Assembly (NCBI GenBank): GCA_022826185.1
Contig: JAJDVH010000087.1
Coordinates: 1 to 32,216 of the forward strand
Direction: 5' to 3'
DNA from: Alphaproteobacteria bacterium
GTDB lineage: Bacteria; Pseudomonadota; Alphaproteobacteria; Bin95
DNA length: 32,216 nt
Shown here: one piece after another, positions 30,041 through 32,078 of the stretch
Position numbering within the stretch: the stretch's first letter is position 1
How the letters are laid out: every line of letters begins with the position of its first letter
Made by a program: the position numbers and the translations under genes
The notes under the pieces: model-generated
The model's input: the letters and a program-made list of their open reading frames with translations, nothing else
Told to the model about the DNA's origin: nothing
Databases searched by the model: none

Positions 30041-31156
30041 ATGCCCGCCAACAAGAAGATGCTCATTCTCGCCGGCGACGGCATCGGCCCGGAGGTGGTG
30101 GGGCAGGTGCGCCGCGTGGTGGACTGGATGGACCGGCGCCGCCATGTCTCCTTCGACATCGCCGAAGGACTGGTGGGGGGTGCGGCCATCGACGCGCACG
30201 GCCTGCCGCTGACCGACGAGACGCTCGCCGATGCGGTCGCCTCCGACGCGGTGCTGTTCGGCTCCGTCGGCGGGCCGAAATGGGAGACCTTGCCCTTCGA
30301 GGTCCAGCCCGAGCGCGGCCTGCTGCGCCTGCGCAAGGAGATGGACCTGTTCGCCAATCTCCGCCCGGCCATCGTGTTCGATGCGCTTGCCGACGCCTCC
30401 TCGCTCAAGCGCGAGCTCGTCTCCGGCCTCGACATCATGATCCTGCGCGAGCTGACCGGCGGCATCTATTTCGGCGAGCCGCGCGGCATCGAGGACCTGG
30501 GCAACGGCGTCCGGCGCGGCATCAACACGCAGGTCTATACGACGCCGGAGGTCGAGCGCGTCGCCCGGGTCGGGTTCGAGCTCGCCCGCAAGCGCTCCAA
30601 CCGCGTGATGTCGGTCGAGAAGGCCAATGTCATGGAGAGCGGCGTGATGTGGCGCGAGGACGTCCAGCGCATCCATGACGACGAGTTTCCCGATGTCGAG
30701 CTTGCGCACATGTATGCGGACAACTGCGCCATGCAGCTCGTCCGCGACCCGAAGCAGTTCGATGTCATCGTCACCGACAACCTGTTCGGCGACCTGCTGT
30801 CAGACTGTGCGGCGATGCTGACCGGCTCGCTCGGCATGCTGCCCTCGGCTTCGCTGGGCGCGGAGGACCCGACCACGGGCCGCCGCCTCTCGCTCTACGA
30901 GCCGGTGCATGGCAGCGCGCCCGACATCGCCGGGCAGGACCGCGCCAACCCGCTTGCCGAGCTGCTCTCCTTCTCCATGATGCTGCGCTACAGCTTCGAC
31001 ATGGACGAGGACGCCGACCTGGTGGACGGCGCGGTCGAGACCGTGCTGGCCTCCGGCGTGCGCACCGCCGACATCGCCGAACCGGGCCGGGACCCCGTCT
31101 CCTGCTCCGCCATGGGCGACGCCGTGCTCGCGGAACTGGACCGGCTGGCGGCTTGA
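30041..31156 (+). CDS. leuB: 3-isopropylmalate dehydrogenase
   Basis: A 371-residue LeuB, which oxidatively decarboxylates 3-isopropylmalate in leucine synthesis using NAD. Blocks in order: [98 protein letters not shown] and the NAD-site stretch [22 protein letters not shown] 30041 has a strong GAGGAGGAGG site. Other leu genes are absent from the window. A decayed copy of its own 3' end follows immediately. Confidence 0.96.
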
Positions 31157-31180
31157 TGAGGCGTCTCACCGGCGCGGATG

Positions 31181-31354
31181 GACAGGTCGGCAGGACTGAG
31201 CAACACCGACCGGCCGCGCGCCGCGCTTTCCTTCTCGGCGACGCTGCGCTAAAGCTTGGACATGGCTGAAGACGCGGATCTCGTGGACCGGGCGGCGGAG
31301 ACCGCGCCCGTCTCCGGCGCGCTCGCCGCGGGCGGCGCCGGGCCGGCGGCCTGA
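31181..31354 (+). pseudogene. Degenerate second copy of the leuB 3' end
   Basis: The DNA after leuB aligns to codons about 294-348 of leuB itself. In frame from 31223 it reads ALSFSATLR, then a TAA stop (31250-31252), then SLDMAEDADLVDRAAET. The intact gene reads [10 protein letters not shown] then [17 protein letters not shown]. The tyrosine codon TAC has become TAA. The match starts about 31181 (GGCAGGAC stretch), needs a small indel near 31210 and fades after about 31320. A TGA in the same frame ends the remnant at 31354. It is most simply a tandem-duplication or recombination relic. Confidence 0.8.
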
Positions 31355-31389
31355 GACGCCGCGTGTCGTCAACGGAAGAACGCCGGACG

Positions 31390-31926
31390 ATGCGCGGTCC
31401 GCTGCGGATCGTAAGGCACGGGTGGCGGCCTCCGGAGCGGCCGAAACGCCTGCCCCCCTGGTGGCCGCAGGCCAGGGAAATGCTGGAGCAGGGCCACTCG
31501 CTCAAGTCGGTCGGCAGGACGGTGGGCGTTTCCAGCCAGAGGGTCGCGCAGATAGCCGGCAAGGCCGAGAGGTTCGGGGAAACCGTCAGGCGGAGGCGGC
31601 AGAACCCGCCCAAGCCGCGCCCTTGCGCCGTATGCGGCACGGTGTTCCGGCCGCACAGCCGGCACTCCGCCTACTGCTCCAGGCAATGCGCCGGCCTGGG
31701 CCGGAGCGAAAAGACCCGGCCGGCCGAAACGATCCGGCGCGCCTTCGAACTGCGCTGCGCCGGGAAATCCTACTGGGACATCGCGGACATGCTGGACATC
31801 GCGCCGGAGGGGTCCCGGCATTACCGCCAGACACGGGCGCGGCACTTCGCCAATGCGTGGGCCCGGCGGTCGGGGCTCAAACTGCCCGCCAAGCCGCGCA
31901 AGCCCCGGACACCGCCCGAAAGCTGA
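31390..31926 (+). CDS. Unrecognised basic protein with HTH-like and zinc-finger-like segments
   Basis: A 178-residue, strongly basic protein that I do not recognise. From the N-terminus it has a helix-turn-helix-like stretch (GHSLKSVGRTVGVSSQRVAQ), then a zinc-knuckle-like motif CAVCGTVFRPHS...YCSRQC (C-x2-C-x13-C-x3-C, cysteines 79, 82, 96, 100), then a second HTH-like stretch (GKSYWDIADMLDIA) and a proline/lysine-rich tail. This suggests DNA binding, or a small phage- or plasmid-type regulator. ATG 31390 is chosen, but a GTG at 31363 would add nine residues; neither has a good ribosome binding site. It lies between the leuB remnant and the right outward promoter. Confidence 0.6.
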   Translation: MRGPLRIVRHGWRPPERPKRLPPWWPQAREMLEQGHSLKSVGRTVGVSSQRVAQIAGKAERFGETVRRRRQNPPKPRPCAVCGTVFRPHSRHSAYCSRQCAGLGRSEKTRPAETIRRAFELRCAGKSYWDIADMLDIAPEGSRHYRQTRARHFANAWARRSGLKLPAKPRKPRTPPES

Positions 31927-31933
31927 GCCGGGG

Positions 31934-31961
31934 GCCGGCAATGGCGGCTGCAGCCGCCGGC
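31934..31961. terminator. GC palindrome after the HTH/zinc-finger-like gene
   Basis: A perfect 16-base palindrome GGCGGCTGCAGCCGCC (31943-31958) sits just downstream of the stop at 31926, within a longer GC-rich inverted stretch. There is no T tract, so termination is only a possibility. Confidence 0.25.
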
Positions 31962-32010
31962 GTGAGAGGGGAACGCCTGCGGCTTCCTCCCGGATTCAAC
32001 GGGCTGCGAG

Positions 32011-32078
32011 AAAATAGCCGGATATTTTCATTTTTTGTTCCCGGACGGGCTTGACATTTGGCGGTATGGTGTAGAATG
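32011..32078 (+). promoter_or_regulatory. Strong outward-facing promoter at the right end
   Basis: TTGACA (32051-32056), a 15-base spacer and TAGAAT (32072-32077). Upstream, about 32011-32040, is an A/T-rich run (ATATTTTCATTTTTTG) like an UP element. It mirrors the left-end promoter, although the upstream AT-rich sequences differ in detail, which indicates conserved function and not simple duplication of flanking DNA. Confidence 0.55.

Follow-up and report, generated by a model that had tools for sequence, protein, structure and literature searches.

A diverged copy of the leuB 3′ end persists as spacer DNA behind the intact gene in three related alphaproteobacteria and is probably the relic of an old partial duplication

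Our analysis of a 32,216-nucleotide stretch of alphaproteobacterial DNA (contig JAJDVH010000087.1; hereafter, the window) identified a diverged copy of the 3′ end of leuB in the spacer immediately behind the intact gene. The copy and leuB are immediate neighbours on the same strand (Table 1), and we consider it likely that this stretch is a pseudogene fragment, the relic of an old partial, and probably tandem, duplication of leuB that now serves as spacer DNA. A first-pass annotation, made from the window alone, had proposed that this DNA is copied and decayed and does not correspond to a normal gene, which our analysis supports.

Table 1. Features of the leuB locus in the window, whose genome is G000, and the insert found at the same locus of the related genome G003. 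G004 is the third genome carrying the remnant.
Feature	Position	Strand	Evidence or remark
leuB, 3-isopropylmalate dehydrogenase, intact, 371 aa	30041..31156	+	Clear isocitrate/isopropylmalate dehydrogenase; Pfam PF00180, E 3.2e-133
Spacer containing the remnant	31157..31362	+	Common to G004 and, from ~31206 onward, G003
Frame 1, starting on the leuB stop (TGATG) and reading block 1 out of the leuB frame; a weak candidate for translation	31156..31269	+	Open also in G004
Weak 5′ extension, ~leuB codons 297-308, with frame-breaking gaps	31189..31225	+	Local alignment; low nhmmer posterior
Block 1, leuB codons 309-335, with TAA at codon 317	31226..31306	+	Codon alignment
Frame 2, 30 codons in the leuB frame, Met321 to remnant stop; possibly translated, weak	31262..31354	+	Open also in G003 and G004
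Block 2, leuB codons 352-364 with an additional codon (CTC), downstream of a 48-nt in-frame deletion	31307..31348	+	28-31/39 identity with each of the seven leuB genes of the genus
Remnant end, leuB codon 371 plus stop, after an 18-nt in-frame gap	31349..31354	+	14/18 match to the last 18 nt of leuB
Next gene, helix-turn-helix (HTH) protein, 187 aa	31363..31926	+	HTH matches, each under the Pfam cut-off
G003 insert, 1.77 kb, with a 286-aa open frame, starting directly behind the leuB stop	L115:742-2508		Replaces ~first 49 nt of the spacer

The reading of the spacer as a diverged copy of the leuB tail is borne out by alignment. An ungapped repeat of 122 nt with 75% identity links positions 30964-31085 to 31225-31346. 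When leuB and the spacer were aligned with gaps, the local score was 100, far above that of 2000 dinucleotide shuffles of the spacer (mean 25.6, maximum 43). In addition, a profile built from seven leuB genes of the genus recovered the remnant stretches alone with nhmmer E-values of 1.7e-19 (window), 1.1e-19 (G003), and 1.2e-14 (G004), and in relatives the spacer is not filled by any unrelated conserved gene. It should be noted that spurious alignments arise in sequence of high G+C content and that the genomes of this genus are multi-contig assemblies, but the shuffle scores, together with the presence of the identical kind of diverged remnant behind leuB in three separate assemblies, refute a chance resemblance or an assembly artefact, a reading to which we attach practically no probability.

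The first-pass annotation had placed the copy at leuB codons ~294-348, with a match that fades towards its end. The assignment to the leuB tail stood, while its extent had to be redrawn, as the firm match comprises codons 309-335, codons 352-364, and codon 371 plus the stop. The fading match over codons 336-348 was a misalignment, since codons 352-364, placed after a 48-nt in-frame deletion, fit better: comparing the G000 and G004 remnants with the seven genus leuB genes, the 39 nt past codon 335 are identical at 28-33 of 39 positions to codons 352-364 vs 13-23 of 39 to codons 336-348 (the extra G000 codon is excluded from the block 2 identity counts). In 3000 letter shuffles of each piece, none equalled its best match at any offset in its own leuB tail. 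The profile placed the later portion of the G004 remnant at leuB positions 1054-1104, a match that is weak alone (E 0.039, below the inclusion threshold). Finally, the last 18 nt of leuB align with the remnant end at 14 of 18 positions (shuffle p 0.003 in G000 and 0.009 in G004), and the remnant extends to leuB's own stop, at 31352-31354.

The TAC-to-TAA nonsense change that had been reported for the window was confirmed at codon 317 and is the same in G003 and G004. With this stop, the 48- and 18-nt deletions, and the absence of the 5′ part of the gene, the remnant is inactivated and is without any possible LeuB function. A comparison of the genus consensus sequences of leuB and remnant revealed 25 differences (5/10/10 over the codon positions), with 14 changes towards G/C and 4 towards A/T in the direction from leuB to remnant; Met, Val, and Leu are frequently replaced by Ala, Thr, or Pro. 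As read from these aligned sequences, the changes accumulated since leuB do not look like those of a LeuB-like constraint. Two observations are not predicted by pure decay: every deletion beyond codon 309 has a length divisible by three, and the differences between G000 and G004 lean synonymous.

The family search covered 14 genomes, eight of which belong to the same genus, including G000. Within the genus, LeuB was detected in seven genomes and not in G006 (75% complete). Three of the seven carry the remnant (G000, G003, and G004), and no remnant was found behind leuB in the other four (G001, G002, G005, and G007; in G002 only ~1.4 kb are available downstream before the contig ends). The gene order in the carriers is leuB, remnant, and then the HTH gene; the remnant is directly behind leuB in G000 and G004 and ~1.77 kb further downstream in G003, the only one of the 14 family genomes in which the insert of this length was found. 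An HTH-type gene is found directly or nearly directly after the leuB stop in G002, G005, and G007, and other genes are located behind leuB in G001. The whole-genome protein search listed the remnants of G000 and G003 and missed that of G004, which was found by the DNA search, so that an absence by protein search alone is weak. Three kinds of match were set aside as chance: a 28-nt spacer match behind leuB in G002, a translated match resembling the LeuB tail in G001 (E 0.88), and matches shorter than 50 nt elsewhere in the genus.

Outside the genus, loci were drawn from two genome collections (16 + 80), with at least 300 nt of downstream DNA required, and one of the 96 was excluded for having too little. 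None of the remaining 95 loci has a copy of the leuB tail downstream within the up to 3 kb examined, and the same search recovers the copy of the window. The DNA behind leuB includes asd at 27 of the 75 loci having at least 1500 nt, and a gene named asd from its sequence is also located downstream of leuB in G004.

A tree based on 126 aligned sites grouped the three remnants in one clade (support 100/99) on a stem of 0.21, nested within the leuB clade of the genus (100/100). This topology, in which one long stem among the leuB genes of the genus carries all the remnants, indicates that they arose once; the TAA and both deletions are common to all three. With both the remnant and the gene inside this genus-level clade, there is no sign of another lineage, and judged by this tree the remnant is derived from the genus's own leuB lineage. 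Its placement among the genus genes is compatible with a grouping with the carriers' leuB (AU p 0.37) and with a position outside all seven (0.30); the best tree joins it to G001 leuB with a support of only 38/65. An earlier alignment of 120 columns, which was partly wrong and has been superseded by the 126 columns, gave a similar picture with a longer stem (0.3).

Regarding the age of the copy, the remnant tips measure 0.05-0.07, and stem plus tips amount to ~0.26-0.28, close to half of the leuB dS of 0.47 between G000 and G001, the deepest member of the genus. This suggests that the remnant may be as old as the genus, in a rough dating that assumes neutral rates, and if so it may since have been lost by the non-carriers. 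The first-pass description of the event as old is thus supported, as the copying came before the G000 and G003 remnants separated from that of G004. The remnants of G000 and G004 differ at 12 of 126 sites, a divergence of ~0.10 that is lower than the dS of leuB (0.17) and of the HTH gene (0.24) for the same pair. Given this divergence under the dS of its neighbours, some constraint on the remnant is possible.

Taken together, we propose that a single copying event, in an ancestor belonging to the genus or to its stem, placed a second leuB 3′ end immediately after the gene, covering at least codon 309 to the stop. The copy and its position are present in the DNA, and the mechanism would most likely be a short tandem duplication. 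The upstream copy, whose frame is intact, would have remained part of the whole, functional gene, while the headless copy would have lost its 5′ frame, acquired the TAA and the deletions of 48 and 18 nt, drifted to higher G+C, and survived in three species as the spacer separating leuB from the HTH gene; the 1.77-kb insert of G003 would later have taken the place of roughly the first 49 nt of this spacer. Tandem duplication, one of two origins put forward by the first-pass annotation, accounts most simply for a neighbouring copy on the same strand that ends at leuB's own stop. It fits the arrangement, although no repeat could be detected in the flanks: the 70-nt stretches that follow the leuB stop and the remnant stop have no detectable likeness (p 0.66 in G000 and 0.38 in G004). 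Decay would hide a repeat running past the stop, or the repeat may have ended at the stop. An origin of the remnant as the tail of a second leuB was also considered and rejected, since no second close leuB was found in the genome: a protein search of G000 identified a sole close copy, with the next-best match elsewhere at 36% identity.

The other origin put forward, replacement of leuB by an incoming copy, would make the remnant the original tail. The present tail would have come with an incoming leuB, through recombination with a close relative, or with an element integrating at the leuB 3′ end, and the old tail would have been pushed downstream, where it decayed. Site-specific integration of mobile elements leaves copies of gene 3′ ends, and our locus is similar in having a copy of the leuB end downstream of the whole gene and, in G003, other DNA between the two; a layout with a 1.77-kb insert between leuB and remnant is what is expected of an integrating element. 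It differs in that G000 and G004 offer no space for an element, none was recognised in G003 (neither of two ORFs of the insert, including the 286-aa frame, matches Pfam), and the leuB tail is not foreign. The match between leuB and remnant is also far longer than the usual attachment core. Furthermore, the G003 insert is later than the remnant, because the ~49 nt with which the spacer begins, common to G000 and G004, are missing there. In favor of a displaced tail, leuB has apparently been exchanged within the genus, because its divergence disagrees with that of rpoB and gyrB: for G000 and G003 the dS is 0.12 for leuB vs 0.04 for rpoB and 0.08 for gyrB, and for G000 and G004 it is 0.17 vs 0.38 and 0.26, which suggests recombination at leuB. 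In the core gene trees (12 genomes for gyrB and 11 for rpoB, with G009 and one or two others omitted because the gene was partial, absent, or doubled, and no whole rpoB for G002), G003 is nearest to G000 and G004 is no closer than the others. Against it, the remnant groups with leuB in a single genus clade, no such tail is found at the 95 loci outside the genus, and the leuB tails of the carriers do not diverge from the level of the rest of the gene more than non-carrier tails do (codons 295-348 vs 1-294: 92.6 vs 96.4% for G000-G004 and 87.7 vs 93.7% for G002-G005). The claim of replacement thus found no positive evidence and no foreign lineage, although replacement from a close relative is conceivable given the apparent exchange of leuB, and we regard a displaced original tail as unlikely.

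A different view of the locus is that the remnant was retained for its short frames, which would pass translation on from leuB to the HTH gene, replacing the direct overlap with the leuB stop seen in G002 and G005. The proposed path runs from leuB through TGATG into frame 1, through ATGGCTGA into frame 2, and to a stop 8 nt before the HTH start. Comparing G000 with G004, 8 of 18 differences in frame 1 (p 0.076) and 6 of 9 in frame 2 (p 0.022) are synonymous, and this excess in both frames gives a combined p of 0.005 by site permutation. The in-frame indels past codon 309 point in the same direction, as do the inverted-repeat arms of G004, which span 12 bp and coincide precisely with the leuB stop and the HTH start; this length is reached in 1.0% of 200 shuffles. 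However, the synonymous signal comes from effectively one genome pair, in frames picked after the sequence had been seen and with a 12-nt gap of frame 1 set in frame by hand, and in G003 the insert interrupts frame 1. In G000 no perfect arm exceeds 9 bp, a length that 33.5% of shuffles also attain; by our estimate, chance would yield one compensatory change in the arms with a probability of roughly 0.15, and folding is no better than that of shuffles (z 0.37 and -1.27). The case for the short spacer frames still being translated is weak, and we find it quite improbable that the frames at 31262-31354 and 31156-31269 are translated and kept open as a coupling relay between leuB and the HTH gene, whether as translated spacer or as a micropeptide source.

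Inverted-repeat arms lie at 31156-31168 and 31352-31364, on the leuB stop and the HTH start; in G004 they pair perfectly over 12 bp, and one two-sided change distinguishes G000 from G004. Predicted folds would pair the leuB stop with the HTH start. A structured cis-regulatory RNA found no support in the folding of the spacer relative to shuffles (z 0.37 in the window and -1.27 in G004), and the spacer has no match in Rfam at E up to 1. A consensus scan of the spacer revealed neither promoter nor terminator. A miniature mobile element with terminal inverted repeats was considered and rejected: the arms are present, but there is no further copy of the spacer in its own genome, where, apart from itself, the spacer matches only two places, over 35-41 nt. 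A repeat listing of the window (seeds of 11) contained two repeats of 41-42 nt and missed the leuB repeat itself, and is therefore uninformative on similar tails.

The preferred reading of a decayed partial duplication places the remnant within a known kind, most likely a harmless leftover and an ordinary genome fossil. The remnant resembles bacterial intergenic pseudogene fragments (PMC9336565, PMC522871, PMC2916853) in being a truncated, stop-containing gene copy in a spacer, easily missed by gene calling; here the parent is intact and adjacent, and the fragment is old and common to three species. Young Salmonella pseudogenes are reported to be removed fast (PMC2916853), whereas the leuB remnant has persisted, a point against the preferred reading. 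Among the titles of the literature matches listed, a copy of the leuB tail did not appear as a topic. The locus shows that the dead end of a gene can last as spacer DNA while three species diverge. It also marks the DNA behind leuB as a site of turnover in this genus, occupied by the HTH gene, the remnant, the 1.77-kb insert, or other genes. If the translation signal were true, a pseudogene would have turned into a translational linker; as it stands, the remnant is a small piece of ordinary genome history.

The HTH gene behind the remnant is present in 6 of the 14 family genomes, with one match each and every time behind leuB. It is fast-evolving, with a dN between G000 and G004 of 0.15 vs 0.007 for leuB. 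Its product matches PHROG 125, "DNA invertase" (3.9e-06). The protein also contains a paired-cysteine stretch, which we take to be a zinc-ribbon-like motif. Within 31900-32040, a weak Rfam match to ar7 is located on the minus strand (21.9 vs a cut-off of 60 bits, E 0.078). The same region contains a terminator-like hairpin at 32002-32019 (+), 3′ of the HTH gene, which is one of three such sites, vs a shuffle average of 1.0.
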